Assembly (NCBI GenBank): GCA_031268975.1 | Contig: JAIRWM010000083.1 | Coordinates: 1-44,505, forward strand | Direction: 5' to 3' | From: Treponema sp. | GTDB lineage: Bacteria; Spirochaetota; Spirochaetia; Treponematales; Breznakiellaceae | Length of the DNA: 44,505 nt | The notes under the pieces: model-generated | What the model saw: the letters and a program-made list of their open reading frames with translations, nothing else | Database searches by the model: none | Told to the model about the DNA's origin: nothing | Shown here: positions 557 through 18,948 of the stretch, piece after piece | Position numbering within the stretch: the stretch's first letter is position 1 | Layout: each line of letters starts with the position of its first letter | Program-made: the position numbers and the translations under genes

Positions 557-660
557 CAAGTTCAGCCGCCGGTTCCAGGCGCGGCGGAACCGCGTACTCC
601 CATAAAATTCATATCCTTTCATTGTTGATACTAGTATACTCATATCCTGGAATAAGAATA

Positions 661-674
661 CCCAATATATTGGG
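661..674. promoter_or_regulatory. Candidate operator of the XRE regulator
   Basis: CCCAATATATTGGG is a perfect 14-base palindrome 42 bases before the ATG of the XRE gene. Small XRE regulators commonly bind such dyads to control their own transcription. Binding by this protein is inference from position. Confidence 0.5.
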
Positions 675-716
675 AAAACAAAGCAACTACTACGAGTTTT
701 ATCGTATTTTTATTAT

Positions 717-1058: not shown

Positions 1059-1084
1059 GACAACCGGGTTTACCGGGACGCGGC

Positions 1085-2903: not shown

Positions 2904-2918
2904 CGCTTTAGCCAGACG

Positions 2919-5900
2919 CTACTTTCCCGCGGCAAGGCGTTCTTCCCCGGACTTTTCCCCGCACGACGGGCAGCCTTCCTTTTCCGGGCAGGATGCGGTG
3001 CGGGGCCCGCCTTCTCCCTGAGCGTCGACAAGAACCGGAGCGAAGCGGCGGCTTCGTTTTCCGGCTTTGTCAACAAGCCCGGAAATGTCGCCTTTTCCCC
3101 GGAAACGGAGCACGTTCACCATAAAAATGTTGAGCTTGTTGACGATGTTGGGAGGCAGCAGGTTTCCGTCTACTTCCACGGACAATGTGGGGTAGTTCCG
3201 CTCTCTGGCCCAGGGGGTAAAGAGGCCCTCGATAACCCTGCCGATAAGACAGGCGAAGGGACTGATATTCACAATGCCGGAATAGCCGTTTTCCATCGCG
3301 GTGGCGGCGGCCCCGCTTGAAACGGCGATTTCCGAATTGAGTTCCAGGTTTACGAAATGCTCCTGGGTATTCTTCATAATTTCGTGCATGTCGTGGGGCG
3401 TTTCCGGAATAAGGCCTGTCGGTTTCAGTATGGACAGAACTTTCTTTTCGACTGAATGTTTCCACCACTCTTCTATGCCGAGCTTTTTCAAATCCCTCCA
3501 GGGTTTTGAAAAAAGCCGTCTGCCGGGTTTTCGTAACAGGATAAGTTTGTTCAGGGCGTATTCCCGCACAAAGTCCAGATAGTGAATCCACTCGGCAATG
3601 CCTGCCACTTTTACCACGATGCCCCGTTCGCTCATCAGATCGATAAGTTCGCCTACGGCAAAATCGTCCCGGCGTACATATATTTCGCCCACGACAAGAA
3701 CCTTGGGGCATTCGACGACGGTTTTTTTCAGCGGAATTTTTTTTACGTCTCTGGCGACTTTTTGAAGCCCGTTCCATATTTTTTTCGGCTCAAATTCCAC
3801 CGTGTGCATCAGGGTGCGCCAGGAACGCTCGTAATCGGCGAGGGCCGTATCCGGGTCTGCCGCAACGGCCTTGAGCGCCGTCTGTATGTCTTTAAGGTAA
3901 TCGGCAAGTACAAAGCCCCGCCACATTTCCTTGACAAAACCCGAACCAAGCTCCCCGTAGGAATTATCCGCCGAAAGAATGAACACCACGACATTTTCAA
4001 GCCTGAGATCGCGGAAAAGGTTTTCGTAGTACACAAAATACTGGCCGGTACGGCAGGGCCCTGTCGTTATCGGCACAAACAGCAGGTACAGTTCGTCTTT
4101 GCGGTATTTGTCGCCGAAGAAAAACTGAAGGGCGCTGCCGAGAACAAGGTGGCTTGGAACACATTCCTTTCCCGACGCATGGGCCCGCGCTATCTGTATG
4201 GTTTTGTTTGTCGCTACGGGCAGGGGCTCGGCGTTGATTCCGATAGACCGTATCGCGGCGCCTATGTATTCGGTGGAAATCGCCCCCATGTTGGAAAGCA
4301 GCACCTTGACCCGCCTGTTCCCGATAATGGGAACTTTTTCGCCTGTTTTTTCGTTGTCAATCCGCAGATCAAAATTCCGGGAACCGGCGTTCTTTTCCGC
4401 GACAAACTTCCAGCCGTTGCTGTAGCGCTCGGCTTCAATTTCGCCCTGCTTTGCCCGGTATCCGTCAATGATATCCAGAAAAGCTTCGACACGGGTATCC
4501 ACTCCGGCGTCGGCAGAATGGGAATCCAGTTCCAGAATAAGGAACGGTTTTTGTCCCATAATCCATTTAAGATAATGAAGGATGAACGAATCCGGCGCGC
4601 AGGAAAAGTTCGTGATGTAGGTAACATAGACGTTGTCCTGCTTTTTTAAAAGGACGGCAGACTTTACATCCTGCTGTCCGTAATACCAGTACATGTTGGG
4701 GAATATTTTTTCATTCTCAAAGGGAAGTATGTCAAACGGGATAACGGAATATCCCCTGGTGATAAATTTCCTTGGTATGCCCATATTGGCTTCCGGGGTA
4801 AAGGCATTGTACGGCCGCCCCAAAAGGGCGATAACCGGCCGCCCCGCTCCCCGGGCTTCTTCCAGAGCTTCCCGGCCAAGCTTTTGCGACGCTTCAAAGT
4901 ACGCCTGCTGCCGCTTCATCGCGGCGTTAAACGCCGCTTCCGTTTCCGCTTCGCTTATTCCCAGGCGGCTTGTCATTTGGACAAAAAGTTCCAGCGCCTT
5001 GCCGTTACCGAACTTGAAGCTTACCACCAGCGGCAGCCATTTTGCCTTGTCCACGCCGGGAAAGGCTTTTTCCACATAGTACGGAAGCGCCTGGGTAATC
5101 GGGCAAAAGTTCGCGTGAACATCCTGTTCGTAGCTGGGCATGTCCCTGAAATGGGGAAGCAGCACATAATCCGCCCCCTTGTCCAGACAATCCTGTACGG
5201 CTCCGTGGGCGATTTCCGCCGGGAAACAATACGTGGACTCCGCCCTTGCCACACCGGCGTGGGCGACTTCCGTTGAAAGGAATGTTTTTATCCCCAGTTC
5301 ATGGAAAAACCAGGAATAAAGCGGATACAGTGAATGGACGGAAAAGCAGCGCGGAATACCCACGGTAAAATCGCGCCTGAAAGCGGCATCCGCGGTGGCC
5401 GCCGGCGGGGCGAATTCTTCAAACAGCAGTTTCTGACGTTTTTCCACATAGTCGAACACCTGTACGTCTTTTACGGATTTCCGCATATTCGTGTACTTGT
5501 TGCAGCGGCCGCCGAACATGTACTTGTGTCCGTCGACATTCAGCACCTGTATTGGGCAGTAATTGTCGCAGCTTTGGCACTTGAATACCCGCTCATATAC
5601 AATTTCCCGGGAAAGCAGCTTGTCGATAACAACGGCCTTTTCTTCAAGAAGGCCGCCGGCATGTTTGCGTTTTGCCAGAAGGGCCACACCGAAGCAGCCC
5701 ATAAGTTCAGGGGAAGGCGGCACAAGGATTTCCTTGTCAAGGAGCATGGCGAACGCCAGGGGAACGGCGGTGTTTTTCGCCACCCCGCCCTGGAGGAACA
5801 CCCTGCCGCCGATGGTACGGTTCCCCACAACCCGGTTCAGGTAATTCGCCACAATGGAGCAGACAATACCGGCGGTAATGTTTTCTTTGCTGGCCCCCTG

Positions 5901-7361
5901 CTGCACCGCTTTGCGGATATCACTGTTGATAAAAGCGGAACAATGCTCGCCGAATTTAAGCGGCGCGCCGGCGTTAAACGCCAGCGGCCCTATCTCCGGC
6001 GCGCTGTGAATGGAAAGGTCGCCGGATGCACTTTCTTCAAGAAACGATCCGGTTCCGGCAGAACAGGCTTCGTTCATCGCGTAATCTATGGGAACCCCGT
6101 TTTTAAGAAGCACATACTTCGCGTCCTGTCCGCCTATTTCAAAAATCGTTTCGACTTCCGGATCAAAGTACGTGGTTCCAACAGCGTGGGCTATAATTTC
6201 ATTGTACACCCCCGGGGTCTCAAGGAAGACCCCGAGTATTTCCCTGCTGGAACCGGTTGTGGAAACAAGGCGTATATCAATATCCGCACCGCCTGTATCC
6301 CTGGTTATTTTTTCCTGAATTACCGAAAGGCATTCCTTGAGCGCCTTTACCGGATCCCCGTGGGTACGGCCGTAGTGGCTTGCCGCAACTTCGTCGGTTT
6401 CCATATCAACAAGGCAGGCTTTTGTCGTAGTTGATCCGCCGTCGACGCCCAGTATGTAGCGCCTTCCGGCCTGGACCCTGCCGTCGCTCTTTTCAAAAAA
6501 ACGGACCTTGCCCTCCCAGTCTTTGAGGGCGGATAACGCGCCGAAGCGGATTTCGTTCGCCTTGAGGAGCTTTTCTTCTTCGGGAAGGGGACTTCCCGAA
6601 GAAGGCGCCAGCGCCGCCGCTCCCAGCGCCTCAAACACCGGTGCCGATTCGGGAATAACGAACTCGATTTCCGGAGCCTTTTCCCTGATAAACCGGATAA
6701 TGTGACGGTTCAGGGTAATGCCGCCGGTAAGTACAACTTTGCCTGAATGTACCTTTGCCCGTTTGAGAAAATCGATAACCTTGACGGCCATTACATCGGA
6801 CAGTGAAAGAACAATGTCCTCTTTTGTGGCTTCCCGTTTATTTAAGCGGTGGGTACAATCGCTTTTCATAAATACCGAACAGCGTGTGGAAAGCGGATAC
6901 ACTTTTGCCGTATCGGGAACCCGGTCAATATCGGCCAGGGTCATGTCCATGCGGGCAAGCTGCTGTTTGAGAAATTCGCCGGTACCGCTGGCACATTTGT
7001 TGCCGGAAAAGTTGTTGACGATTTTCCCTTCTTCGTTCAGCCGGTACACGACAAGGTCTTCCCCGCCCATGCTTACCACGGCGTCCGCCTTGATGGAAAG
7101 CGCCCGGAGCGCCGCTTCCACGCAAAGGGGTTCCAGGGTTCCCGCGGCGTCAAACATAAAACGGCCCTCGTTTCCGGTAACAAGGGTGGGAAGTCCGGGA
7201 GTTATATTCCCTTCGGCAAGCAGTTTTTTTACCGCCGAGGCAAAATCCCCCTCGTGGGGAACGGCGGCGCTCCAGACGCACCGGAGGCCGCCGGAAGGAT
7301 CTTTTTCCGCCAGAGCCATTTTCAGGCTGGTGGAACCGATATTGATACCTAAAGAACGCAT
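2919..7361 (-). CDS. Giant 2-hydroxyacyl-CoA dehydratase activase-like fusion protein
   Basis: 1480 residues. Two BadF/BadG/BcrA/BcrD (ASKHA) ATPase domains lie in tandem: residues ~1-270 (GINIGSTSLK, CASGTGEF) and ~300-570 (GVDGGSTTTK, GGQDAK, CSAGTGSF). The cysteines in the C-A/S-GTG segments are where family activases bind a [4Fe-4S] cluster at a dimer interface. A Cys-rich motif CQSCDNYCPI follows near 640-650, then DUF2229 (~690-930) and an HgdB-like region (~1050-1400). The tail is Cys-rich (CPEKEGCPSCGE). In the first domain GGQD is GGED. Activases couple ATP hydrolysis to low-potential electron transfer to radical dehydratases; this fusion class is common in anaerobes but its substrate is not established. 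A GAGGAAG ribosome-binding site precedes the ATG. It leads the patatin-cysE operon; no separate dehydratase subunits are nearby. Confidence 0.88.
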   Translation of the reverse strand: MRSLGINIGSTSLKMALAEKDPSGGLRCVWSAAVPHEGDFASAVKKLLAEGNITPGLPTLVTGNEGRFMFDAAGTLEPLCVEAALRALSIKADAVVSMGGEDLVVYRLNEEGKIVNNFSGNKCASGTGEFLKQQLARMDMTLADIDRVPDTAKVYPLSTRCSVFMKSDCTHRLNKREATKEDIVLSLSDVMAVKVIDFLKRAKVHSGKVVLTGGITLNRHIIRFIREKAPEIEFVIPESAPVFEALGAAALAPSSGSPLPEEEKLLKANEIRFGALSALKDWEGKVRFFEKSDGRVQAGRRYILGVDGGSTTTKACLVDMETDEVAASHYGRTHGDPVKALKECLSVIQEKITRDTGGADIDIRLVSTTGSSREILGVFLETPGVYNEIIAHAVGTTYFDPEVETIFEIGGQDAKYVLLKNGVPIDYAMNEACSAGTGSFLEESASGDLSIHSAPEIGPLAFNAGAPLKFGEHCSAFINSDIRKAVQQGASKENITAGIVCSIVANYLNRVVGNRTIGGRVFLQGGVAKNTAVPLAFAMLLDKEILVPPSPELMGCFGVALLAKRKHAGGLLEEKAVVIDKLLSREIVYERVFKCQSCDNYCPIQVLNVDGHKYMFGGRCNKYTNMRKSVKDVQVFDYVEKRQKLLFEEFAPPAATADAAFRRDFTVGIPRCFSVHSLYPLYSWFFHELGIKTFLSTEVAHAGVARAESTYCFPAEIAHGAVQDCLDKGADYVLLPHFRDMPSYEQDVHANFCPITQALPYYVEKAFPGVDKAKWLPLVVSFKFGNGKALELFVQMTSRLGISEAETEAAFNAAMKRQQAYFEASQKLGREALEEARGAGRPVIALLGRPYNAFTPEANMGIPRKFITRGYSVIPFDILPFENEKIFPNMYWYYGQQDVKSAVLLKKQDNVYVTYITNFSCAPDSFILHYLKWIMGQKPFLILELDSHSADAGVDTRVEAFLDIIDGYRAKQGEIEAERYSNGWKFVAEKNAGSRNFDLRIDNEKTGEKVPIIGNRRVKVLLSNMGAISTEYIGAAIRSIGINAEPLPVATNKTIQIARAHASGKECVPSHLVLGSALQFFFGDKYRKDELYLLFVPITTGPCRTGQYFVYYENLFRDLRLENVVVFILSADNSYGELGSGFVKEMWRGFVLADYLKDIQTALKAVAADPDTALADYERSWRTLMHTVEFEPKKIWNGLQKVARDVKKIPLKKTVVECPKVLVVGEIYVRRDDFAVGELIDLMSERGIVVKVAGIAEWIHYLDFVREYALNKLILLRKPGRRLFSKPWRDLKKLGIEEWWKHSVEKKVLSILKPTGLIPETPHDMHEIMKNTQEHFVNLELNSEIAVSSGAAATAMENGYSGIVNISPFACLIGRVIEGLFTPWARERNYPTLSVEVDGNLLPPNIVNKLNIFMVNVLRFRGKGDISGLVDKAGKRSRRFAPVLVDAQGEGGPRTASCPEKEGCPSCGEKSGEERLAAGK

Positions 7362-7626
7362 ATTTTCTTCCTCAAAAACGGGGACACGTTGACCAAACCC
7401 GAACCGGGCGGAAATTTCCGGCTGATTCGGCGTTGAACGGCAATTCTGCCCGATTTAGTCAATGATAACAGAGTTGAGTAAAGGATTCAACACGGCGGGC
7501 GTAAATTCCGGCCCGGTCCCGTGCGTAACCGAGGATGAACGCCGGACGAGGGGGCCGCCCGGTACATGACCGAAACGCCCCGCGTTTTGGATCGACATGG
7601 ATGCCGGCATATTGCGGAATTTTAAA

Positions 7627-8667
7627 ATGAATGATACGGTATTGCTCATGATCAGGACAAAGTTTGCCCCCGTAGTTGCCGCGGCTCTTTTATGCGCTTT
7701 TACCGGTTCCGCCGCCGCCCAGAACAGCGCCATCCAGGCCGCCGGCGCGGAAAATACCGCCCTCGATTCCATTTCCCTCAAGGCCCTTCAAAACTATGCG
7801 TACAAAGCGAGCGACATCACCATTACCCGCTTTGTCTCCGATACAAACGGCTATTACGCCTTTGACGTGGTCTATAGCTCCATGAATCTTTCCGTAAGCG
7901 CCCGGTTCCGCGTACCCAAAACCGCGCCGCGGGGCCTTATCCTCATGTTTCGGGGCCATCAGTTCGAGCGGGGCTACTATACCGGCAAAGGCACGGAAAA
8001 TGTCGGCCGCCGTTACCTTGAAGCGGGTTATGCCACCGTCGCCCCGGATTTTCTCGGTTATGCCGCGTCCAGCGCCACCCCGGCCCCGGCGCAGGCTCAT
8101 CAACTGTACTCGATTATCAACGCCGTTGAACTGTACATGAGCATGCAGAATCCCGTGTTCCGCGTCGCGCCGGGCGTCGCCGTTCCCCCGGAAGCCCGCG
8201 CCGCCCTGCCCGCTTCGTTCAGCCGTTTCGGCGTATGGGGACACAGCAACGGGGGCCAGGTTGCGTTGCATTTCCTCGAAATGGTAAAAAAACCCATTCC
8301 CGCAATCCTGTGGGCCCCGGTTACCCTGGACTATCCGGACAATGTGGCCCACTACAGCCGGAACACCGTCTGGGCCGACGCCTTCAAGGCCAGCCACGCC
8401 GCCGCCGACTTTGCCCTGAGCCGCTTTCTGGGCAGCATCGCCCCGGGCACCCCGATTTTTCTGGAACAGGGGACCGCGGACAGATCCGTTCCCAAAAGCT
8501 GGAGCGACGGCTTCGCCGCCGCCGTCGCCTCGGAAAACGCCCGGCGATCCGACTCAAACAAAATCGCCCTTACATACCGTCTGTACGACAACGCGAACCA
8601 CGATTTGGAGCCCCACCTGCAGACGGTCTGGGCCCAGGACGTCGAGTTTTGGCGGCGGCATTTATAG
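7627..8667 (+). CDS. Exported alpha/beta-hydrolase (esterase/peptidase-like)
   Basis: This 346-residue predicted secreted serine hydrolase has a hydrophobic segment (FAPVVAAALLCAFTGSAAA) followed by AQ, a typical signal peptide with AxA cleavage. The alpha/beta-hydrolase core has the nucleophile elbow GHSNGG (Ser207), an acidic residue in GTADRSVP (Asp285) and His325 in NANHDL. The oxyanion region is probably RGHQFERG. The layout resembles acetyl-xylan esterase, prolyl oligopeptidase and secretory lipase families, so the substrate stays open. Start choice is uncertain: in-frame ATGs lie at 7597, 7627 and 7648. 7627 has a weak GCGGA upstream and gives a sensible signal-peptide length. It is followed after 8 bases by the C39-like peptidase, so the two are probably co-transcribed. 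Confidence 0.82.
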   Translation: MNDTVLLMIRTKFAPVVAAALLCAFTGSAAAQNSAIQAAGAENTALDSISLKALQNYAYKASDITITRFVSDTNGYYAFDVVYSSMNLSVSARFRVPKTAPRGLILMFRGHQFERGYYTGKGTENVGRRYLEAGYATVAPDFLGYAASSATPAPAQAHQLYSIINAVELYMSMQNPVFRVAPGVAVPPEARAALPASFSRFGVWGHSNGGQVALHFLEMVKKPIPAILWAPVTLDYPDNVAHYSRNTVWADAFKASHAAADFALSRFLGSIAPGTPIFLEQGTADRSVPKSWSDGFAAAVASENARRSDSNKIALTYRLYDNANHDLEPHLQTVWAQDVEFWRRHL

Positions 8668-8675
8668 GAAAAACC

Positions 8676-9458
8676 TTGACACAGACATCAACAGTAAAGC
8701 AAAAAGCGCCTGTCATGGCGCCGTCCACAGCGGCCCTTTTCGCGGCGGCCCTTTTCACGGCGGCCACAGCCGCCGTTTTCGCGGAGCCCCTGTCAACGGC
8801 GGCTTTCACGGAAACGCCCTCCGCCGGGGTGAACCTGGACGTGCCGTTTTTTTGCCAGGCGCCGAGGGCGAACTGGGCGGATCAACGGCAGCAGGACGGC
8901 TGCGAAGAAACATCGCTCCTTATGGCCCACCTGTGGCTTACAAAAACCACCCTGAGCGCCGTGGAAGCCGAGGCCGAAATCATCGCCCTTAGCAACTGGA
9001 TTCAAACGGAACATTACACCGGCAGGAAAGCATTCATTCCGGATCAGTCAATTGCCGACGCCGCGTTAATTTTTGCGCGATACTACGGCCACACGGACTG
9101 GGAAATCAAACGCAACATTACCGCAAGAGACATTAAGGCGGAACTCGCCGCCGGGAACCTTGTTATCGTCCCCGTAAACGGCCGCATTTTGGCCAACCCC
9201 CACTTCAATCCCCCCGGCCCCGTCGCCCACATGATTGTCATTACCGGCCATATCGGCGACACCTTCTTTGCCAACGACCCGGGCACAGTTCGGGGAAAAA
9301 ACTTCCCGTATCCCCAGGAACGCCTGATGAACGCCATTTACGATTATCCCACCGGCCGTCACATGCCCTACAGAAAAACCGCCACGGCAATGCTCGTCAT
9401 CCGTCCCCCGAGGCAAAGCATTTTTTACGGCACCAATGGCAACGCGGCATCCAGTTGA
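8676..9458 (+). CDS. Exported C39-like cysteine peptidase
   Basis: This 260-residue protein has a Peptidase_C39_2-type papain fold. The candidate catalytic residues are Cys76 in QQDGCEETSL, His185 in GPVAHMIVITG and the ND pair at 200-201 in FFANDPG. An Ala-rich hydrophobic N-terminus (AALFAAALFTAATAAVFAEP) is a signal peptide, placing it in the periplasm or outside. Family members cut peptides or act on cell-wall material; the target here is unknown. I chose the TTG at 8676 because TAGGAAAAACC gives a proper ribosome-binding site; the ATG at 8715 lacks one. The final codons (9398-9425) contain the left copy of the 28-base direct repeat that also occurs at 16308-16335. Confidence 0.82.
   Translation: MTQTSTVKQKAPVMAPSTAALFAAALFTAATAAVFAEPLSTAAFTETPSAGVNLDVPFFCQAPRANWADQRQQDGCEETSLLMAHLWLTKTTLSAVEAEAEIIALSNWIQTEHYTGRKAFIPDQSIADAALIFARYYGHTDWEIKRNITARDIKAELAAGNLVIVPVNGRILANPHFNPPGPVAHMIVITGHIGDTFFANDPGTVRGKNFPYPQERLMNAIYDYPTGRHMPYRKTATAMLVIRPPRQSIFYGTNGNAASS
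9398..9425 (+). repeat. 28-base direct repeat, left copy (inside peptidase 3' end)
   Basis: It begins CATCCGTCCCCCGAGGCAAA and ends GCATTTTT. The identical 28 bases occur in the same orientation at 16308-16335. Similarity drops to background immediately on both sides, so this is not a long paralogous alignment. Here it encodes the VIRPPRQSIF segment near the C-terminus of the peptidase. Together the copies bracket the AT-richer sugar transporter segment. Confidence 0.75.
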
Positions 9459-9582
9459 GCGCCGGCGGCGCCGATTACAGAAGGAACCGTTGCGTGACTC
9501 TCATCGCCGATATGCTTTATGCCGGGGAACATCAACGGAGTACATTACACGGGAAAGTGGTCGGCATTAAAACTGTTGTTGA

Positions 9583-10446
9583 TTACCTGCGGTTTTTATA
9601 GTCAACATGGATTTTTTCACCCGGATGCGGATTTAAGATCCTCTCTTTTCTTTCAATTCGATCACGAACTTTATCCGGATCTGTGGCATACCAGGGCTTT
9701 CCCGGAGCATAGTATGTTCCCCAATGAAACATGATGATATCTGCCTGTTTCAAATGATTGGCAAGACGCAGTGCGTTTTCTGTTCCGAAATGATGCAGGG
9801 GGGAATTATCTTCAAAGTCCATAAACAATAAATCAACATCTGTGTTGTTAAAATGCTCATTCAAAACCCTGGTGTCTCCCGGATCCCAAATTATCCCATT
9901 CCGTGTATAGAATTTAAAACCGCAGCAGTCTTCCGGCTTATAGATATATGGCTGAGTATCCGGATAATCCATCTGCCACGGATGATCGGCGGGGGTCATC
10001 TGAACTTCAACACAGCCAATTTTAAATCTGTCTTCTGTGTTATGGCTTATAATTTTTTCTTCCACAACACCAATTTCCAAAAGTCGTTCTTTTACTTTGT
10101 CTGTACCATGAAATACAGAATCTTTCTTAATCAGTTCCTTTACTGTTAACGCACCAAGATGGTCCGCATCCGCATGGGTATACAATACGGCATCTACCCT
10201 ATATATATCTTTTGCAAAAACAGGCGGCATGGTATACTGGGGAGTATCTTCCACTTCGCTAATGGGCGGATTATCCGAAGCCAGGCTCAAAATTGGGTCT
10301 ATCAATATTGTTGTACCGTAACTATTTAAGAAAATTCCCGCACCCGTAAGCCAATAAACAGCAGTGTCATTTGTCCGCCCGAATGCTTCCCGTGTCATGG
10401 GAACCGGATCGGGAGCCTTTGCCTGGTATGCCCCTTCGTTTACCAT
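9583..10446 (-). CDS. MBL-fold metallo-hydrolase, UlaG-like
   Basis: This 287-residue cytoplasmic metallo-beta-lactamase-fold protein carries the metal motif THADADHLG at ~92-100. That is HxDxDH rather than the classical HxHxDH, with Asp in the second His position. Further ligands are likely in TPADHPW, WDPGDTR and the C-terminal MFHWGT. UlaG-like enzymes open lactone rings such as L-ascorbate 6-phosphate. The start is the ATG at 10446 with AAAGGAGGGAAAGGC directly before it; an ATG ten codons upstream is less likely. It is the last gene of the leftward sugar ABC operon, 26 bases after the second permease. This suggests a lactone or sugar-acid substrate, but that is inference. Codon use is AT-richer than in the flanking genes. 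Confidence 0.82.
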   Translation of the reverse strand: MVNEGAYQAKAPDPVPMTREAFGRTNDTAVYWLTGAGIFLNSYGTTILIDPILSLASDNPPISEVEDTPQYTMPPVFAKDIYRVDAVLYTHADADHLGALTVKELIKKDSVFHGTDKVKERLLEIGVVEEKIISHNTEDRFKIGCVEVQMTPADHPWQMDYPDTQPYIYKPEDCCGFKFYTRNGIIWDPGDTRVLNEHFNNTDVDLLFMDFEDNSPLHHFGTENALRLANHLKQADIIMFHWGTYYAPGKPWYATDPDKVRDRIERKERILNPHPGEKIHVDYKNRR

Positions 10447-10472
10447 GCCTTTCCCTCCTTTTTTTGCCAAAA

Positions 10473-11450
10473 TCATGTCCGGAGTTTTGGCGCTCTGATA
10501 TTAAACATCATTATAACAAGAAGCAATCCGCCCTGAATAACGAGTCTCATTCCCTGCCCCATATTTAACGCCTGGAGTATGCTGTTAAGTTCAATAAGCA
10601 CTATTGATCCAAGTGCACCGCTTACATAACTGCCTTGACCTCCGGAAAGACTTGTACCTCCAATGGTAATCGCTGCCATAGAAAGCAGTGTGTAGCTTAC
10701 CGCCATATTTAATGTAGTACTGCCGGCATAACCAACAATCAGCAGCCCCATAAAACCTGCAATAGAACCGCTGATGACATACGATAAAAACAATACACCT
10801 TTTACATTGATGCCTGTAATTCTTGCTGCATTTTGATTATCACCGACAAGCTTCAGCATTCTTCCAGCCTTTGTCCTTGTCAAAATAATTTCCGTTATCA
10901 CGACTATAATTATCACTACAAACGTTAATTTTCGAATGGGAGGCACAATGCTGCCACTAATGGATTTGAGTAACATGCTGATATTTGCGGAAGGCTGACC
11001 CCTGGTTAACACCATAATGGTTCCACTAATAACACTCCCCATGATGATAGTCATAATCAATGCCGGAATTTTTACGATACTGACAAAAAAGCCGTTTACG
11101 CTTCCGAAAATCGCACCTATAACAAGGGCAGCCGAAATCGCGACAATAAATTGCAGAGGAGTATCCATCGGAAGCAACGGACAAATTAACGCCGTACATG
11201 ATGCTGTAGCGCCTATGGAAAGATCAATACCGTTGTTACCGGCAATAATCACGGTATTTTGCGAAATAGACATAAGCGCAAGAAGGCTTGATGTCATCAG
11301 AATGCTGCTGATGTTGTTCATTGAAATAAATCCACGCGCTATAAAATTACCCGCCAGCATCAGGACAATAATGGCAATTATTGAAGGGAGTAATAATTCA
11401 ACCTTTTTATGGGTACGTTTAAGCGTTATGCCTGATTCGTTCTCTAACAT
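10473..11450 (-). CDS. Sugar ABC transporter permease 2 (CUT2, RbsC-like)
   Basis: This ~325-residue inner-membrane permease of the BPD_transp_2 family has about nine hydrophobic segments. The family loop GNNGIDLSIGAT (~residues 72-84) and a C-terminal GGTSLSGGQGSYVSG block are typical of ribose/galactose-type importers. The start is the ATG at 11450 with AAGGAAGG nine bases upstream; a TTG at 11456 is also possible. Its 5' end overlaps the preceding permease by about 32 bases, implying coupled translation. Two different permeases in one CUT2 operon suggest a heterodimeric channel, as in Lsr, Rha and Ytf systems. The substrate is unknown. Confidence 0.9.
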   Translation of the reverse strand: MLENESGITLKRTHKKVELLLPSIIAIIVLMLAGNFIARGFISMNNISSILMTSSLLALMSISQNTVIIAGNNGIDLSIGATASCTALICPLLPMDTPLQFIVAISAALVIGAIFGSVNGFFVSIVKIPALIMTIIMGSVISGTIMVLTRGQPSANISMLLKSISGSIVPPIRKLTFVVIIIVVITEIILTRTKAGRMLKLVGDNQNAARITGINVKGVLFLSYVISGSIAGFMGLLIVGYAGSTTLNMAVSYTLLSMAAITIGGTSLSGGQGSYVSGALGSIVLIELNSILQALNMGQGMRLVIQGGLLLVIMMFNIRAPKLRT

Positions 11451-12429
11451 ATTCAAAAACCTTCCTTATCCTGTCCCTTTCGCTTGAAATGACAACAGAA
11501 ACAACTACACTTGTAAGCAAAATCAACGTTTTGAGCAGTTCCTGCCAAAATGTATTTATTCCCATGGAAATAATAATATTTGTAAGCATGAACAGGAAAA
11601 GGCATCCGAATATGCCGCCTCCCACATCACCCTTGCCTCCCGAAAGAGAAACGCCGCCAATGACAACGGCTGAAACTGCCGTCATTGACATTGATGCACC
11701 AAGAAGCGGATTCCCGCCCTGTATCATACATGTTATGGCAAGAGCACCAATACCCGTTGTAAAACCGGCGAAACAATATGCAAACATTTTTGTCATTACA
11801 ACATTTACACCTGAACAATAGGCACTGAGTTCATTTTCTCCGACAGCATATATTTTAATTCCTGCCGGTGTGCATTTATATATTTTCCACAAAAAATACG
11901 GCACAAGAATAAATACCACAGTTACAGGCACAACGCCAAAGATCCTTGTTCCATAAAAGTCCGAAAGCATGGTTGTCTTAAGGTATATTGGAGTACGTGT
12001 TACAACCAAAGCAAGTCCGCCGTAAATAATTGATGTTGCATACGTTGTAAGAAGTGGATTGATACGCATAACACCGACCATAAACCCATTAAGTGCACCA
12101 GACCCAACTGATACTAAAAGCATAACGATTATGGCCGCACAAACCGGCATCCCGCCCCCAATTAGCTTAACGACAAGTACATTGCATAGAGAAACCAGCG
12201 GTCCAATCGAAATATCTATGCCGCCCGTCAAGATTACAACAGCCTCACCGATACATATACACAGAACGGTAATATTTGAATTAAGAAAACTTCTTGCAAA
12301 ACCAAGATCAAAATTTGCATTTGTCCCAAATACAACAAAAAGTGCAGAAAGGATAAATAAAAAAACTGCCGGGGCGGAACTTGACTTAATCAAATTTACC
12401 AAAATTCTTCGGGATATATCTTTACTCAT
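11419..12429 (-). CDS. Sugar ABC transporter permease 1 (CUT2, RbsC-like)
   Basis: This 336-residue inner-membrane permease has a short basic N-terminus (MSKDISRRILVNLIKSS) followed by repeated hydrophobic helices. The BPD_transp_2 signatures are EAVVILTGGIDISIGPLVS (~62-80) and GGVSLSGGKGDVGGG (~260-275). It partners the next permease and the upstream double ATPase. The ATG overlaps the ATPase stop (ATGA), so both are made by translational coupling. The positive-inside C-terminus (SSERDRIRKVFEYVRERIRH) matches cytoplasmic termini of the family. Confidence 0.9.
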   Translation of the reverse strand: MSKDISRRILVNLIKSSSAPAVFLFILSALFVVFGTNANFDLGFARSFLNSNITVLCICIGEAVVILTGGIDISIGPLVSLCNVLVVKLIGGGMPVCAAIIVMLLVSVGSGALNGFMVGVMRINPLLTTYATSIIYGGLALVVTRTPIYLKTTMLSDFYGTRIFGVVPVTVVFILVPYFLWKIYKCTPAGIKIYAVGENELSAYCSGVNVVMTKMFAYCFAGFTTGIGALAITCMIQGGNPLLGASMSMTAVSAVVIGGVSLSGGKGDVGGGIFGCLFLFMLTNIIISMGINTFWQELLKTLILLTSVVVSVVISSERDRIRKVFEYVRERIRHNA

Positions 12430-13928
12430 GGTATTTTATCAATTCCCTTTGCAAGGGTCGCCGCAATAATATTATCCCGTGTAATTTCAAAACCCCGTAA
12501 AGTTACGACAATACCACCTTCATATAATACAATGACCCTTGCATTTTCTTTTTCCGAGCATAACGCCACCAGTTCATCTTCATCACTCGAAACAAAAATC
12601 ATTGCCATGCCTTTTTCCGAAAGGGCCCAAAGAATCTCCCTGAGTTCACCTCTTGCTTTAATGTCTATGCCTTTTGACGGATCATCGGCAAGAAGCAACA
12701 GCGGATTGGTGTGCGTCCAGCGTCCGAGTATAACTTTTTGCTGATTTCCGCCTGACAGTGACGCTATATCCTGCTGAGTAGTATCAAATTTTACGTTCAA
12801 TTGCTTAAGAACCGCCATTACATCACTTTTTTTGTTTAAGGCAAGTTCTTGTACAACCTTGGTGTTTTCTGAAAGGTCGTGGCGCTTGAATACGCCGTCC
12901 CTTTCCCGATCTCCCGAAACATAGGCAAAGCCATGTTTTACGGCACCTGCAGGGTTATCAATATGCAGACGCCTGCCCCTCAATTCTATCTCTACAGAAC
13001 CGGAAAGGCCGTGTAATGTCCTGACAATATCGGCTTGACCGTGTCCCTGGAGTCCCGCTATTCCGATAATTTCACCTTCCATTATGTCCAAATTGACTTT
13101 TGTATTATAACGTTTTACAGGAAGCCCTTTTACAGAAATTAAAAGTTCCTGCTGGTTTACTCCGGATTTTTTTCTTTTTTTCTGCTTTTCTTTTACTTCG
13201 GAATCCCTGTCTTTATTCCCTATCATATCAGTAAGCAAAGTATCGCTGCCGACCCATTCCAGATTATATGTTGAAATCACTTCTCCGTTCCGCATTACTG
13301 TAACCGTATCACAAATTGAAAAAATTTCGGACATTCGATGCGATACAAACAGGATAATTTTATTCTGTCTTTTGTATTCGTCCAGCAGTCTTTTTACAAT
13401 TTCAACATCTTCCCGGTACAATGCCGATGTAATCTCGTCTATCATCAGAATATCAAAATCCTGAAAAACCGCTTTCCCGAATTCAATCAGGTACTGCTTA
13501 TTTATGGGAAGCTCTTTTATCGGCGTATCTATCTCTTTTAGAATTCCAAGTTTATCAAGTATATTTTCAGTTTCGGCCCTCATCACCTTTCTGTCGGTAA
13601 AAATCCGTGACCACACAGGTACTTTGCACAGTGTAATGTTCTCTTCGACCGTTAAATTCGGCAATATGCTGAGTTCCTGGGAAGTAGCGGCCAATTTTAA
13701 CGCCTTTGAAGATTGTGGTGAATGGATTTCGGACTTTACACCGTTAAATAAAAGTTCACCTTTATCCTGCTTCACAAGACCAGCCCCAACTTTTATAAGT
13801 GTCGACTTCCCCGAACCGTTACCTCCCAGAAGCGCTCTTATTTCGCCGCTTTTCAACACAAGGCTCGCGTTTTTCAGGGCATGTATGCTACCATATGCTT
13901 TTGAAATGCCTTTAAACTCAAAAATCAT
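12426..13928 (-). CDS. Sugar ABC transporter ATPase with two ABC domains (RbsA/MglA-like)
   Basis: This 500-residue double ATPase energises the two permeases. Domain 1 (~1-240) has an intact Walker A, GGNGSGKST, and Walker B ILMIDEITSAL, but its signature region (LPINKQYLIEFGKAV) is degenerate. Domain 2 (~265-495) has a Walker A lacking the lysine (GLQGHGQAD) but a good signature, LSGGNQQKVILGRW, and DDPSKGID. This complementary asymmetry is the normal RbsA pattern and gives one competent composite site. The linker contains a basic stretch, KEKQKKRKK. It ends in an ATGA overlap with permease 1. The ribosome-binding site is weak (GTGAGAG). Confidence 0.93.
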   Translation of the reverse strand: MIFEFKGISKAYGSIHALKNASLVLKSGEIRALLGGNGSGKSTLIKVGAGLVKQDKGELLFNGVKSEIHSPQSSKALKLAATSQELSILPNLTVEENITLCKVPVWSRIFTDRKVMRAETENILDKLGILKEIDTPIKELPINKQYLIEFGKAVFQDFDILMIDEITSALYREDVEIVKRLLDEYKRQNKIILFVSHRMSEIFSICDTVTVMRNGEVISTYNLEWVGSDTLLTDMIGNKDRDSEVKEKQKKRKKSGVNQQELLISVKGLPVKRYNTKVNLDIMEGEIIGIAGLQGHGQADIVRTLHGLSGSVEIELRGRRLHIDNPAGAVKHGFAYVSGDRERDGVFKRHDLSENTKVVQELALNKKSDVMAVLKQLNVKFDTTQQDIASLSGGNQQKVILGRWTHTNPLLLLADDPSKGIDIKARGELREILWALSEKGMAMIFVSSDEDELVALCSEKENARVIVLYEGGIVVTLRGFEITRDNIIAATLAKGIDKIP

Positions 13929-13955
13929 ATTTACAAAACTCTCACTTTAAGTTTC

Positions 13956-13974
13956 ATTAAACCCACTTGCGAAT
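13956..13974 (+). repeat. 19-base dispersed repeat, copy 2
   Basis: ATTAAACCCACTTGCGAAT, identical to 538-556, lies between the binding-protein gene and the ATPase gene. The copy at 538 forms the right arm of an inverted repeat; this one has no matching left arm nearby, so it may be a truncated element. Confidence 0.65.
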
Positions 13975-13985
13975 AAAACACGAGA

Positions 13986-14018
13986 ACTTAAGCAAGATTA
14001 CCATCCCTTGCTTTAAGT
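13986..14018 (-). promoter_or_regulatory. Intercistronic stem-loop after the binding-protein gene
   Basis: ACTTAAGCAAG pairs with CTTGCTTTAAGT across a 10-base loop, with one bulged base. It sits between the binding-protein stop and the ATPase start. In periplasmic-binding-protein operons such hairpins often protect the first cistron or attenuate readthrough, giving excess binding protein. That role is inferred here. Confidence 0.5.
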
Positions 14019-14064
14019 CCCCGTATTCCTGGATAACAGATAATCTCCGCAAACCTAAATATTA

Positions 14065-15183
14065 CTATTTAAAGTATGCATCGATTTCATTCTGTGCGAG
14101 CCACCCGTCAAGACAATCTGTATTCTGCATACCTTTTACAAGATTTACCGCCTCGTTAAGAGTTATGGCTTTTGATCCATTTAGACCCTGCATCCATGGA
14201 GCGCCCGGATTGCCTTCCCGTGTTACCACATACGCAGGATCTCTGATGATACAATTAGCAAGCCCGGGATTAAGCGGATTGGGCTGTAATGCATCAGCTT
14301 TGAATTCCTTCCCCTGAAGAAGATTAATGGCTATTCCGAGAGCGTCTTTAATAATTCCGGGGCTCACGGTTACGGTTATCGAGTTAAGATCCGGAAGGGC
14401 AGCCCACATATCAATGTACTCCTTGGTATAATCCCCGGTAACAAGCCTGGGTTCAATACCAGCGTTTTTATACGCATTCAAGATACCGGCGCTCATTACA
14501 TCCTGGGTAAGAACACCGTCGACCTTACTATAGGTTGAAAGGTAGACAGTCATGGCGGCCTGTGCATCAGTTGTCGAGTACTTGCCTTCACCGATGGCCA
14601 GAGTCCGGATTGCGGGGTACCTTGCAAGAATTCTGTCTACCACTGCCTGGCGGGGCTCATTGGCCGGATGGCCAAAGACGCCGGCAATCTGAATTATATC
14701 ACCCCGGCCACCAAGCTGTTCGACAAACCAATTTGTAATAACTTCCTGGAAAGCGTCATTATTACCGAAGACGCCGTACGTACCTTCATAAGCAGCAGGA
14801 TCATTGCAGATAATGGCAAGGGTCCCTTTCTCAACAGCAAGATCGACAATAGGCTTTATTCCTTCTGCTGATACGGGCCAGATCAGCAAGGCATCAATAC
14901 CGGTATTTATCATCGCCGTACAGGCGTTGATTTGCTGGACAAGGTCGGAAGCGCTTGTCGCAACCTGATATTCCGAAATAATGCCCTGCTTTTTGTACGC
15001 CTCGGCAGCTTCTTCAAAGTCCTTCACATATGCCGCAGACCAGGTGTTCCCCCACACCGCTGTTGACAGACCAATTTTGAGACCTCCGCTGCTCGTATCA
15101 GCTTTCTTTGGGCCACATCCGGTGAAAACTCCTGCAGCAAGAAGCAGGCTTACGAAAACATGTATCATTTTTCTCTTTTGCAT
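14065..15183 (-). CDS. Sugar-binding lipoprotein of the CUT2 ABC transporter
   Basis: This 372-residue lipoprotein has a lipobox ending at Cys23 (AGVFTGC), so it should be lipid-anchored on the periplasmic side. The Peripla_BP_4 fold starts at GGLKIGLSTAVWGNTWS. The motif INTGIDALLIWPVSAEGI (~90-107) and the C-terminal KVDGVLTQDVMSAGILNAYK match type I sugar-binding proteins of the ribose/autoinducer-2 class. The terminal region (NEAVNLVKGMQNTDCLDGWL) is family-typical. It is the first gene of the leftward transporter operon, divergent from the AraC regulator, and has an excellent AGGAGG ribosome-binding site. The ligand cannot be named; the UlaG-like gene downstream hints at a sugar acid or lactone. 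Confidence 0.92.
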   Translation of the reverse strand: MQKRKMIHVFVSLLLAAGVFTGCGPKKADTSSGGLKIGLSTAVWGNTWSAAYVKDFEEAAEAYKKQGIISEYQVATSASDLVQQINACTAMINTGIDALLIWPVSAEGIKPIVDLAVEKGTLAIICNDPAAYEGTYGVFGNNDAFQEVITNWFVEQLGGRGDIIQIAGVFGHPANEPRQAVVDRILARYPAIRTLAIGEGKYSTTDAQAAMTVYLSTYSKVDGVLTQDVMSAGILNAYKNAGIEPRLVTGDYTKEYIDMWAALPDLNSITVTVSPGIIKDALGIAINLLQGKEFKADALQPNPLNPGLANCIIRDPAYVVTREGNPGAPWMQGLNGSKAITLNEAVNLVKGMQNTDCLDGWLAQNEIDAYFK

Positions 15184-15279
15184 TTTTATTGTTCCTCCTG
15201 TTTAAAAACGTAAAGATTATTGGTTTTTTTGTACATAACCACTATTGACAATTCATATCCGATATTGATATTTTCAAAT

Positions 15280-16140
15280 ATGCGGATCAAAAAAGCGGTT
15301 TATGTGTTCAGGTTAATGGGAGGAAGCAACTTGGTTTGGCACGGGCGTTACCATAGCCACGATATAACAGACTACGAAATTCATGTCTTTTTTGAAGGAG
15401 AAGGACAAATACTGCTAAATCGTTCGAAATTCCCAATTGAGGCGAATCGGCTTTTCTTGGCAAAACCCAAGGAATTTCATTCAATACTTCCCGATGCTGT
15501 TCGAAAGCCTGTTACCTATTATGCAATCCGTTTTGAATCGTCCGAAAACGAGACTGATAAAGAAGTACTGTCCCTTCTGAACAATTCTTTTGGCCCGCTT
15601 TCAATCGACGCAAGAGAACGTTTTTTTATTGAAGATCTATACAGGCTTACCGGGGAAAATGATCCGGCAAAGCAACGGGCTACCGAATATCTGTTATTAA
15701 GCCTTCTCTTTCGCTGGTATGGGGGAGTAAAGCCTGCGGATCAAGATCATGGATCCAGGGATTCACAAAGGCATTACATAGATAAGACGCTTTCCATTAT
15801 GGAAAAGTCAATCAGGAAAAAACTCAATGTCGGAGTATTGGCGGATAAAATCGGACTTTCAGAAGAATACCTTATCAGAATTTTTCATGACCGGCTGGGC
15901 ATGACCCCGTTTCAGTACTTTACCAGACTTAAAACCGAAGCTTCGTCTTCTCTCCTTTCCAGAACCAATTTACCCATACAGCATATAGCGGAACATTTTG
16001 GGTTTGAAAACCCGTTTCATTTTTCACGAGTCTTTAAAAAGTGCATCGGCCTTTCTCCATCAGCGTACCGGAAGACCTTTGCTTTGCAAGGAGAAAACGA
16101 GGAAAGCTATCCGTTGAACAGTAAAACGGAGATACCGTGA
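15280..16140 (+). CDS. AraC-family transcriptional regulator
   Basis: This ~286-residue regulator has an N-terminal cupin-like sensor domain (~1-150; HGRYHSHDITDYEIHVFFEG and FLAKPKEFHSI are typical) and a C-terminal AraC double HTH (~190-282; LADKIGLSEEYLIRIFHDRL and IAEHFGFENPFHFSRVFKK). It is divergent from the sugar transporter operon with under 100 bases between starts, so it most likely controls that operon in response to the transported sugar. The ATG at 15280 was chosen; an upstream TTG at 15220 would add a poor, hydrophobic 20-residue extension. Neither has a clear Shine-Dalgarno. It lies at the right end of the AT-richer island. Confidence 0.9.
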   Translation: MRIKKAVYVFRLMGGSNLVWHGRYHSHDITDYEIHVFFEGEGQILLNRSKFPIEANRLFLAKPKEFHSILPDAVRKPVTYYAIRFESSENETDKEVLSLLNNSFGPLSIDARERFFIEDLYRLTGENDPAKQRATEYLLLSLLFRWYGGVKPADQDHGSRDSQRHYIDKTLSIMEKSIRKKLNVGVLADKIGLSEEYLIRIFHDRLGMTPFQYFTRLKTEASSSLLSRTNLPIQHIAEHFGFENPFHFSRVFKKCIGLSPSAYRKTFALQGENEESYPLNSKTEIP

Positions 16141-16307
16141 ACATCGGCAGTCCTGCGTTCAGGGGTGGAATACTGTGGACAAATGGATTTTCAAAACCGA
16201 AAATTTTTTGTCTGAACGTGCAACATGCTGGCTATACCCTTCATTTTAACCAGGAACAACGTAACCGGAAGAATGAGAAAGGGGACGGCACAGGTGCCGT
16301 AGTTCTC

Positions 16308-16335
16308 CATCCGTCCCCCGAGGCAAAGCATTTTT
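16308..16335 (+). repeat. 28-base direct repeat, right copy
   Basis: Exact copy of 9398-9425, here outside any gene. The two copies are about 6.9 kb apart and flank the AT-richer block with the metallo-hydrolase, the sugar ABC transporter and AraC. Possible explanations are a recombination or attachment scar, or movement of a short piece of the peptidase gene. Confidence 0.75.
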
Positions 16336-16401
16336 ACCGTGCCGCTTTCGGAGAATGGTTTAATGTCTGCCCGCGTTACAGACAGACATTAAATATATTT
16401 G

Positions 16402-16430
16402 GCTGTGTTCCCGCGGACTCCATCCGACAG
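16402..16430 (-). pseudogene. Fossil fragment of an AlkD-like gene
   Basis: By hand alignment, 26 of 29 bases match 18055-18083 inside the intact AlkD-like gene, with no gaps, and all three differences are transitions. Read leftward the fragment gives VGWSPREHSQ against IGWSLREYSK in the intact protein. The reading frame ends soon after. It lies 20 bases beyond the HAAS gene stop, where a second AlkD-like copy would be if the gene set had once been duplicated in tandem. Confidence 0.6.
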
Positions 16431-16449: not shown

Positions 16450-17223
16450 TCAGCGCCGGTTTTTCCGCATGATCTCAAGCCGCGTTTCCAGCGCCCAGGG
16501 TTTTAGCCTGCATTTTTCCGTTAAAATCAGAAACGCGAGAATGCCAGCGCCGGACAGCACAAAAGGAAATGCGGAAGCCAGACCCCCCGCGCGGCCTTCC
16601 CAGCCTCCGGCGGAGAAAAGCACAAGGGGATAAATCGAAACGCCAAAAGCGATTAACCCTGCGGCGGTTGAATACCAGAGAGCGCGTTTGCGTTTCATGG
16701 GATACAGTGAAGATGTTTCCTGGGTAAACCCAAGAAATGTAAAACCCGCGGCAGCCGCGGTAAAAAAAGGAAAAAAGACACCGAAAACCCCTTCCAGCTC
16801 GAGGCGGCTGTTTCCATAGCCGGACAGACTGGGGCCGTTTGGCGCGTTTTGCAAAACGCCCGTTTCCGTCGATCCGGTGAGCGCAAAATAGGTTATGAAT
16901 GAAAAAACAAATCCGAAAACCAGCAGGGCGCCAAAAACAATATAACTGATAATACGGCCGGTTTTCATGTAGTGCCTGATGTCAAGATACCGCTCCTCAA
17001 AAACTTCTTTCCGCCTGTTCCGGCTTATTTCGTCGGCTAACGCGGAAACGTCTCCAAGCTCCGAAGCCGCTTTTTCAAAGGCCGCTTTTTCCGGCAAACC
17101 TTTTTTGACCATGCTCGCGATACGATCGTCAAGATTAACCTGTAGTTCCTCCATAAAATCCAGCAGCGCTTCCGTTTCTTCATAATCCGTAAACAGGGTT
17201 TTGACATATTCTTTAGTGTTCAT
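16450..17223 (-). CDS. HAAS/DUF1700-type membrane protein
   Basis: This 257-residue membrane protein has an N-terminal helical prefix domain (~1-80) with the permease-prefix pattern NLDDRIASMVKKGLPEKAAF followed by ASELGDVSALADEI. Four transmembrane stretches follow at about 88-115, 143-166, 181-207 and 216-236, then a basic tail. Such proteins are regularly encoded right after a PadR-family repressor and are thought to act with it in membrane stress or transporter control; the mechanism is not established. Its start overlaps the PadR stop by 11 bases. A fossil of a second copy, covering the GFTFLGFTQET region, is present at 18699-18753. Confidence 0.82.
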   Translation of the reverse strand: MNTKEYVKTLFTDYEETEALLDFMEELQVNLDDRIASMVKKGLPEKAAFEKAASELGDVSALADEISRNRRKEVFEERYLDIRHYMKTGRIISYIVFGALLVFGFVFSFITYFALTGSTETGVLQNAPNGPSLSGYGNSRLELEGVFGVFFPFFTAAAAGFTFLGFTQETSSLYPMKRKRALWYSTAAGLIAFGVSIYPLVLFSAGGWEGRAGGLASAFPFVLSGAGILAFLILTEKCRLKPWALETRLEIMRKNRR

Positions 17224-17557
17224 TTTTTTCCTCCAGTAAATTTTTCAGAATGGCTTGAGTAAAACGCCAGTCAAGTAAATTTTGTTCCAAAACTTCTTTG
17301 CCTTTTTTTGTAATTTTGTAATATTTGCGCCTTGCCCCCTGAGTCTCGTCACCCCAATACGATGCGATACACCCCGCCTGTTCCAGCCGCTTGTAACTGG
17401 AATAAAGCGTTGTCTCCTTAAGTTCATATTGCTGCCCGGTCTTTTCCAGTATCGTATTGTAAATTTCAAAACCGTAGGCATCGCCGGATTTCAAAATGCT
17501 TAATACGATAGTGTCCGTATGACCACGCAGCACATCTGATGAAAGTTTTGCGTCCAT
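17213..17557 (-). CDS. PadR-family transcriptional regulator
   Basis: This 114-residue winged-helix repressor shows the PadR pattern: LRGHTDTIVLSILKSGDAYGFEIYN, then LKETTLYSSYKRLEQAGCIASYWG for recognition helix and wing, then a C-terminal helix (TKKGKEVLEQNLLDWRFTQAIL) for dimerisation. It probably represses its own operon with the HAAS gene through the dyad at 17604-17625. The ribosome-binding site GGAGGAGG is strong and lies directly before the ATG. Confidence 0.92.
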   Translation of the reverse strand: MDAKLSSDVLRGHTDTIVLSILKSGDAYGFEIYNTILEKTGQQYELKETTLYSSYKRLEQAGCIASYWGDETQGARRKYYKITKKGKEVLEQNLLDWRFTQAILKNLLEEKNEH

Positions 17558-17961
17558 AAACCTCCTCCGGCGGATATTACAACGCTAAATGGTATTATCT
17601 GCCTGATATATTATAGTATATATCATATTACTACGGTTGTCAAGTATATTTTTGCTTTTTTCATCTTTATCCCGAATATTGTTTATTTTTGGCCGATATG
17701 GATACAATTTACCCGGTTGGTTTTATGGGTACGATTATGACCGAAAACAGGGCTATTTCTTGTTTGTACAATACGATTGCTGACTTCGGCAATTTTTTGA
17801 AATCAGAGTTTTCCACAAAACTTCAGCTTTTGTGGAAACTACCTTGGTTTTCATTATTTATATTGACCGATTTGATTACTCCGTTTCCCGCCATACGAAA
17901 AGGACTGGACTGAATGGCCTGATTATGACAATACGGTAAATACTAATGTTTGCGGCAGCCG
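17558..17961. other. Gap with PadR operator and possible decayed reading frame
   Basis: The left end holds the PadR promoter and operator. From about 17660 a rightward frame gives protein-like text rich in Tyr, Gly and Asp (for example YGYNLPGWFYGYDYDRKQGY) that stops near 17783. In another frame near 17890-17960 comes FPPYEKDWTEWPDYDNTV. This looks like a frameshifted remnant of one gene, but no family is recognised and the reading is weak. Confidence 0.35.
17604..17625. promoter_or_regulatory. Candidate PadR operator
   Basis: Arms TGATATAT and ATATATCA form a perfect 8-base dyad around a 6-base centre, about 47 bases before the PadR ATG. PadR-family repressors typically bind AT-rich dyads of this size over their own promoters. 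Confidence 0.55.
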
Positions 17962-18618
17962 CTAAACATATTTGACCGCCTCACGAATCGACAATGGATT
18001 CATCTCTCCCCGGTGTTTCCCGACAAATTTCCGCACCCACGCCGGATTTGTTTTGCTGTATTCCCGCAGACTCCATCCGATAGCCTTGTTTATAAAAAAT
18101 TCTTTTTGACCAAAGTTGTTTTTAATGATCTGCCCAAGCAGCACGGTATTGGTTTTGTCTTTGCGGGTTAGTTGATGATCGATGGCGATGCGGCGCAGCC
18201 AGATGTTTTTGTCCAGGCTCCACGCAAGCAGCGTCTGATTAACTTCCGGGAAACGCAGGGCGATCCCGCCCGCAATCCTGTCCAGCCCGTCAATGGTGTC
18301 CCACCAGGATTTTGTAACAGCCAGACGACGAAGGCGCCTGAGATCGGCGGGCAGGAGAAGATGCCGCAATTTTGTTACATATTCCACCGCCAAATATTGA
18401 AATTCGCGCTCCCTTTTCCAGAGGTCGTTTACAAAAGCCCAGTTAACCGCCGCAGCGTCACGAAGCGCCGGCGGCGTGAAAAATTCCCTGAAAATTTCCC
18501 CGCGTTTCGGACGGGGAATTCCCAAAAAGGGAAATTGATTGCGCATATAGGCGCTCATGGACTTTGCCAGATCCGCGTCCGCGGCATCTTTGTAGGCCTG
18601 AATGATTTTCGCGTACAT
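17962..18618 (-). CDS. DNA alkylation repair protein (AlkD-like HEAT repeat)
   Basis: This 218-residue all-helical protein belongs to the AlkC/AlkD family, whose DNA glycosylases remove bulky or positively charged alkylated bases. Landmarks are the N-terminal FPFLGIPRPKRGEIFREFF, the central VTKSWWDTIDGLDRIAGGI (the WWDxxD element that family members use near the lesion) and the C-terminal FINKAIGWSLREYSKTNPAW. Length and motif order match the family. An AAGGAAATCG ribosome-binding site precedes the ATG. It is transcribed leftward as a single gene. A fossil of a second copy is at 16402-16430. Repair activity is inferred from family. Confidence 0.9.
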   Translation of the reverse strand: MYAKIIQAYKDAADADLAKSMSAYMRNQFPFLGIPRPKRGEIFREFFTPPALRDAAAVNWAFVNDLWKREREFQYLAVEYVTKLRHLLLPADLRRLRRLAVTKSWWDTIDGLDRIAGGIALRFPEVNQTLLAWSLDKNIWLRRIAIDHQLTRKDKTNTVLLGQIIKNNFGQKEFFINKAIGWSLREYSKTNPAWVRKFVGKHRGEMNPLSIREAVKYV

Positions 18619-18698: not shown

Positions 18699-18753
18699 CA
18701 AAATACACTGAAGCGGTCTCCTGTGTAAACCCAAGAAAGGCAAAACCCGGGGA
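18699..18753 (-). pseudogene. Fossil fragment of a HAAS/DUF1700-type gene
   Basis: Read leftward, this gives PGFAFLGFTQETASVYFV, against AGFTFLGFTQETSSLYPM in the intact HAAS gene. The hand alignment of about 45 bases (18705-18750 with 16701-16746) is ungapped, with roughly four fifths identical. Amino-acid changes are mostly conservative, so this was once a real protein-coding copy. It is cut on both sides; the antitoxin fragment starts right next to it. Confidence 0.65.
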
Positions 18754-18768
18754 ACCTCCGCCCATACA

Positions 18769-18948
18769 GCCGATGTTTTAAAGCAGCGTGGCGAAGAGAA
18801 TAACCCGGTAGTTATTACCCAAAACGGGGAGGCTCAGGCTGTTCTGATGAATGTAAATTACTATCAGAATATTATGGATGCGATAAATTTGCTTAAAATC
18901 TCATCATTCGGGGAAAATGATATAAAGAGCGGAGGAAGAATGAAATGA
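18769..18948 (+). pseudogene. 5'-truncated Phd/YefM-type antitoxin
   Basis: The frame reads ADVLKQRGEENNPVVITQNG, then EAQAVLMNVNYYQNIMDAIN, then LLKISSFGENDIK, and ends at TGA 18946-18948. The VVITQNGEAQAVLM strand-turn-strand and the following YxxxxD...LLK helix are characteristic of Phd/YefM antitoxins, which bind operator DNA and neutralise a RelE/Doc-type toxin. The normal first ~20 residues with a start codon are missing: the upstream sequence switches into the HAAS fossil with no in-frame start. No toxin gene follows. It is most likely inactive. Confidence 0.7.

Follow-up and report, generated by a model that had tools for sequence, protein, structure and literature searches.

Background

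The ssrA islands of Dehalococcoides carry a direct repeat of 20 bp, and for the 15 that lack an integration module a cis-mobilizable nature has been proposed (PMC3146451). Many sugar ABC transporters are known from termite-gut relatives of the Breznakiellaceae (PMC13067680). Here we describe a locus from a Treponema species of this family in which an AT-rich operon predicted to encode a sugar importer is bracketed by two exact copies of a 28-bp direct repeat (Table 1). The locus lies on a 44,505-nucleotide stretch of DNA, hereafter called the window.

An operon for a CUT2-type importer

The genes of the operon are transcribed from the minus strand in the order binding lipoprotein, double ATPase, two permeases, and MBL-fold hydrolase. 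The binding protein, double ATPase and BPD_transp_2 permeases that define a CUT2 importer are thus all present. NCBIfam models place the transporter near the importers for ribose, arabinose, xylose, and galactofuranose, with every score under the curated cut-off, and the best PDB sequence matches of the binding lipoprotein are solved CUT2 binding proteins.

The hydrolase had been described as UlaG-like in a first-pass annotation made from the sequence alone. This likeness is only distant, and the assignment as UlaG (L-ascorbate-6-phosphate lactonase) is ruled out by the corresponding model, against which the protein scores 31.8 bits where the cut-off is 306 bits. Judging from the protein families, the operon likely serves to import and begin processing a monosaccharide, polyol, or sugar-acid derivative under the control of the AraC regulator.

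Table 1. Features of the bracketed operon and its borders (window positions).
Feature	Position	Strand	Evidence or remark
C39-like peptidase gene with signal peptide; last codons carry the left repeat	8715..9458	+	PF13529 7.2e-06 (on longer ORF 8235-9458)
Left copy of 28-bp direct repeat	9398..9425	+	Exact match
Left arm of 9-bp inverted repeat, TACGGCACC, just inside the bracket	9426..9434	+	
MBL-fold metal-dependent hydrolase (Lactamase_B_2), last operon gene	9583..10476	-	PF12706 1.1e-18
CUT2-type sugar ABC permease 2	10473..11456	-	PF02653 7e-24; closest model is ribose permease
CUT2-type sugar ABC permease 1	11419..12429	-	PF02653 9.1e-24
CUT2-type double ATPase	12426..13928	-	PF00005; nearest AraG/XylG/YtfR, all under curated cut-offs
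24-nt tail of ~147-bp dispersed host repeat, inside the operon	13956..13979	+	
Periplasmic sugar-binding lipoprotein	14065..15183	-	PF13407 7e-34; matches CUT2 binding proteins 4pe6, 4rs3, 5hko
AraC-family regulator, divergent from the operon	15220..16140	+	PF12833 3.3e-22; true start may be internal
Right arm of 9-bp inverted repeat, GGTGCCGTA, 6 bp from right repeat copy	16293..16301	+	
Right copy of 28-bp direct repeat	16308..16335	+	Exact match, apparently non-coding DNA

Composition and codon use

The block from 9583 to 16140 has a GC content of 42.5%, and the flanks at 1-9397 and 19076-44505 have GC contents of 54.7% and 54.9%. The codon-bias comparison that the first-pass annotation had called for was run, and it gives GC3 values of 0.34-0.47 for the six island genes versus a mean of 0.59 among 250 sampled ORFs of the genome, whose 1st-5th percentiles are 0.37-0.44. 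The AT-rich block is a real composition outlier, though others like it exist in the same genome.

The proposal that the island is AT-richer than both flanks holds for 9583-16140, but the GC content of the right flank is uneven, with only 38.9% at 17224-17960 outside the right repeat. Likewise, exact repeats do lie on either side of the island, but the left composition edge falls inside the bracket rather than at its end: positions 9426-9500, just inside the left repeat, are 63% GC (P 2.5e-4 under 42% GC).

Other low-GC3 CUT2 sugar-transport modules are found in the host genome on contigs C1 (L060:11118-15911), C72 (L065:10910-18030), and C170 (L075:3552-11084). They have a GC3 of 0.29-0.48 and also contain catabolic genes. 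Direct repeats of 14 bp or more are absent from their flanks, the longest being a chance 13-mer. The regulator of the C170 module is 69% identical to a GC-rich (GC3 0.68) regulator of a sister species, and therefore AT-richness alone is no proof of a distant donor. Counting the operon described here, the host has at least four AT-rich CUT2 blocks.

Distribution and origin of the operon

Among 393 Spirochaetota genomes sampled across the phylum, the host's own included, the 392 others gave no ortholog of permease 1 at E<=1e-45. The comparison with relatives that had been suggested gave a similar picture, with no permease ortholog in 58 close relatives, where the best matches are at paralog level (~32-35% identity). 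In the sister species (genome G001), the C39 gene of the left flank is present and the operon is absent after it. The nearest hydrolase found is a 67% identical protein encoded by a goat-caecum MAG of the Oscillospiraceae. A foreign origin, as had been suspected from the look of the island, is supported by the outlying GC3, by the lack of the operon in both the sister species and the phylum sample, and by the placement of this nearest hydrolase in the Oscillospiraceae. On these sequence comparisons, horizontal acquisition of the operon is well supported.

The hydrolase locus of the Oscillospiraceae MAG is not supported as the donor of the operon because the CUT2 genes are absent there; the neighbors belong to a different importer. 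A search for the permease in 394 genomes of the same order, which had no positive control, returned none at E<=1e-45. Work on Sphaerochaeta reportedly showed that spirochaetes and Clostridia have exchanged carbohydrate genes extensively. The present case documents that a single spirochaete lineage gained an operon for sugar import.

The operon also carries a mark of its present host. A dispersed non-coding repeat of ~147 bp occurs at window positions 415-561 and in about a dozen places in the host genome (G000), and a GC hairpin followed by ATTAAACCCACTTGCGAATAAA forms its end. The island contains no more than the last 22-24 nt of this repeat, and another locus, L041, has a shorter piece. Related tails occur in the sister genome as well. 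Because the segment within the operon is the tail of a host dispersed repeat, the operon belongs to the host lineage and not to a contaminating contig.

This finding weighs against an assembly artefact, in which the contig would have been misjoined through the 28-mer. Such an error is conceivable in a draft assembly of 213 contigs that is 93% complete with 4.5% contamination. However, a false join would still need a 28-mer to the left and to the right of the operon, which implies a real circle or a real bracket, and we regard this explanation as very unlikely.

The 28-bp direct repeat

The repeat sequence, CATCCGTCCCCCGAGGCAAAGCATTTTT, is exact at both locations. The first-pass annotation had placed the left copy in the last codons of the C39-like peptidase gene and the right copy in non-coding DNA, with identity stopping abruptly at both edges. 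These points were confirmed, the right copy lying in apparently non-coding DNA and the 30 bp beyond each edge showing an identity of only ~0.3, which is the chance level. A search allowing up to 3 mismatches recovered just these two copies from the whole 2.78-Mb host assembly, and so the 28-mer is not scattered over many unrelated places; such a scatter would have spoken against an insertion. None was found in the 58 relatives at the same tolerance, and there was no exact match among viral contigs. Matches were likewise absent from 100 shuffles of the window, and a hand calculation gives a chance expectation of ~1e-8 exact 28-mer pairs per 44.5 kb.

The repeat belongs to a class whose members are exact direct repeats measuring 20 bp or more, with copies that are separated by more than ~3 kb on the same stretch and have unrelated sequence to either side. 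Within 395 kb of the host genome, comprising the window and 20 further stretches, the 28-mer pair is the only isolated member of this class, barring one pair on L075; the background stretches (~351 kb in total) are a non-random sample, contigs C1, C72, and C170 having been chosen partly because of permease matches. The L075 pair (215/16176) is 22 bp long and is part of a repeat family in the host genome.

Three other accounts of the 28-mer were rejected. A dispersed repeat is excluded by the two copies genome-wide, a longer and decayed duplication by homology between outer and inner flanks that is no higher than in shuffles, and a hairpin by folding that is no better than that of shuffles.

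The sampled 395 kb are also rich in short tandem arrays and dispersed palindromes. Arrays with a 21- or 42-bp period are located at L061:6612-6760, L064:142-230, L065:212-380, L068:17350-17530, L069:271-380, and L070:11891-11935, and perhaps code for 7-residue repeats. Examples of the palindromes are TTGTTCGATACCTGAAGTTATCGAACAA and GTTCCAAAATCTGACATTTTGGAAC.

Flanking genes and sister genomes

An ortholog of the C39 gene was found in only 1 of the 199 other genomes of the family. The ortholog in the sister species is 64% identical and ends at IRPGQP, which is inside the position of the repeat. DNA homology between the two genomes stops at window position 9407. Since this homology runs 10 bp into the repeat, the left copy lies at the native end of the gene. 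In the sister genome, an esterase-like gene precedes the C39 gene, which is followed first by intergenic DNA and then by a phosphoenolpyruvate-carboxykinase-like gene (the last identified by eye).

No empty site was seen in these genomes, which represent each species once, and the sister has another neighbor after its C39 gene. The two flanks of the island sit on different contigs of the sister genome. On the right, the PadR/membrane gene pair is found on other contigs in both G001 and G002, and its neighbors differ in all three genus members. Because the flanks lie apart in the sister and these neighbors vary, an ancestral joining of both flanks is not demonstrable.

The right flank contains several gene remnants. 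An alkD fragment at 16393-16430 is repeated at 18046-18083 and a membrane-gene fragment at 16702-16751 is repeated at 18703-18752, with 84-88% identity, a pattern suggesting that a PadR-membrane-alkD unit was once duplicated in tandem and has since decayed. Just past the second membrane-gene fragment, positions 18770-18948 hold an N-terminally truncated frame whose translation, read by eye, resembles a Phd/YefM-type antitoxin. A strong hairpin, TTTAATGTCTG...CAGACATTAAA, is located just outside the right repeat at 16359-16393, and 1 of 200 shuffles folds equally well.

In an intergenic region so filled with scraps, the right copy might itself be a fragment of the peptidase gene end that was left by a local rearrangement, and the operon would then have entered independently. 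The alkD, membrane-gene, and antitoxin-like (~18770-18948) fragments, the host-like GC directly inside the left repeat, and the shifting neighbors of the PadR/membrane pair are all consistent with such separate events. However, the divergence of the other fragments marks them as older, whereas the 28-mer is exact, and one copy on each side of the window's only foreign block is improbable by chance. This explanation is therefore considered unlikely.

Proposed insertion at the end of the C39 gene

The non-coding DNA between the repeats and the terminal genes amounts to only 157 and 167 bp, which leaves no room there for a concealed recombinase gene. The first-pass annotation had noted that no integrase is present, and we likewise found no integrase, transposase, tRNA, or tmRNA in the searched parts of the bracket and the window, and no recombinase gene or remnant of one; none of the six cargo genes encodes a recombinase. 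An attachment site in a tRNA or tmRNA gene was rejected, as none was found in the window.

The two arms of the inner 9-bp inverted repeat provide suggestive support for an insertion, although they were noticed after the fact. For two sites picked at random, the chance that an inverted repeat of at least 9 bp lies within 20 bp of them is 8.5e-4 (~1/1200 trials). A transposon with target-site duplication does not fit this arrangement, since the right arm is offset from the repeat and there is no transposase. To our knowledge, the target duplications of known IS families are all shorter than 28 bp.

The simplest reading is that the 28-bp repeat is an insertion scar, because the exact repeat flanks the only foreign block in the window and one copy lies at the end of the target gene. 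The repeat and the insertion most likely reflect one event. The operon would have been acquired horizontally, probably after the species split from the examined relatives, and would have entered at the 3' end of the C39 gene, such that the gene's last codons were duplicated and one copy came to lie at each end of the island. We tentatively propose that this occurred by recombination at a short att-like site, with a recombinase that acted in trans or has since been lost, as in cis-mobilizable elements.

Site-specific insertion, as raised in the first-pass annotation, is made plausible by the gene-end copy and the inner inverted repeat. Against it stand the missing recombinase, the lack of a second copy of the site in the genome, the lack of an empty site, the separation of the flanks in the sister, the host-like GC of the 75 bp that follow the left repeat within the bracket, and the three AT-rich CUT2 blocks of the same genome that have no flanking repeats.

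Several of these observations suit a different origin of the scar. A broken or replicating end might have captured foreign DNA carrying the operon, and a return to the chromosome 28 bp upstream, through staggered-end fill-in or template switching, would have duplicated the gene end. Such repair needs no special machinery and makes fewer assumptions about enzymes, and it fits the unique repeat, the absence of a recombinase, the composition edge that is off the left repeat, and the sibling cassettes without repeats. Overall, it explains the locus nearly as well as a recombinase does. However, 28 bp is long for end joining, and the inner inverted repeat is not predicted and would be left to chance. 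Repair is thus a possible but somewhat doubtful source of the repeat, and it is with low conviction that we lean toward a recombinase as its maker.

The event is an ordinary horizontal transfer with a clean footprint of a known kind. By itself the case reveals no new mechanism, but its junctions are precisely defined and can be tested by PCR. A more far-reaching idea is that the bracket, with its 28-bp direct repeats, its inner 9-bp inverted repeats, and no recombinase, represents the integrated state of integrase-free cassettes belonging to a family that is still mobile. Such cassettes would carry sugar-uptake operons between gut bacteria by means of a yet-to-be-recognized trans-acting recombinase with an unusually long staggered cut. 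We consider this highly improbable.

Comparison with known systems

As in the RbsABC and AraFGH importers of the CUT2 type, the operon combines a binding protein, a double ATPase, and two BPD_transp_2 permeases. Unlike these systems, its proteins score far under the curated equivalog cut-offs, and it comes with an MBL-fold hydrolase and an AraC regulator. The modules on C1, C72, and C170 share the transporter type and a similarly low GC3, but differ in having other enzymes attached and no direct repeat of 14 bp or longer around them.

With regard to mobility, the locus departs from the Dehalococcoides ssrA islands in that its target encodes a protein and is not among the genes known to serve as att sites, and in that the repeat has no further copies and no autonomous partner element was seen in the genome. 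The integrase-bearing element with the same att site that is expected for a cis-mobilizable element is not represented by any other 28-mer in the genome or the 58 relatives (up to 3 mismatches), nor by an exact one in the viral contigs. Another hallmark of cis-mobilizable elements, an interior that is free of integration and transfer genes, is present, and the cargo is flanked by two exact direct repeats that may be att sites. Thus, the locus resembles cis-mobilizable elements, and the Dehalococcoides ssrA islands among them, in its cargo of foreign composition, its bracketing by a short direct repeat that derives from the 3' end of a gene, and its interior without a recombinase, and the bracketed operon might work like such an element, with the 28-bp repeats as its putative att sites.
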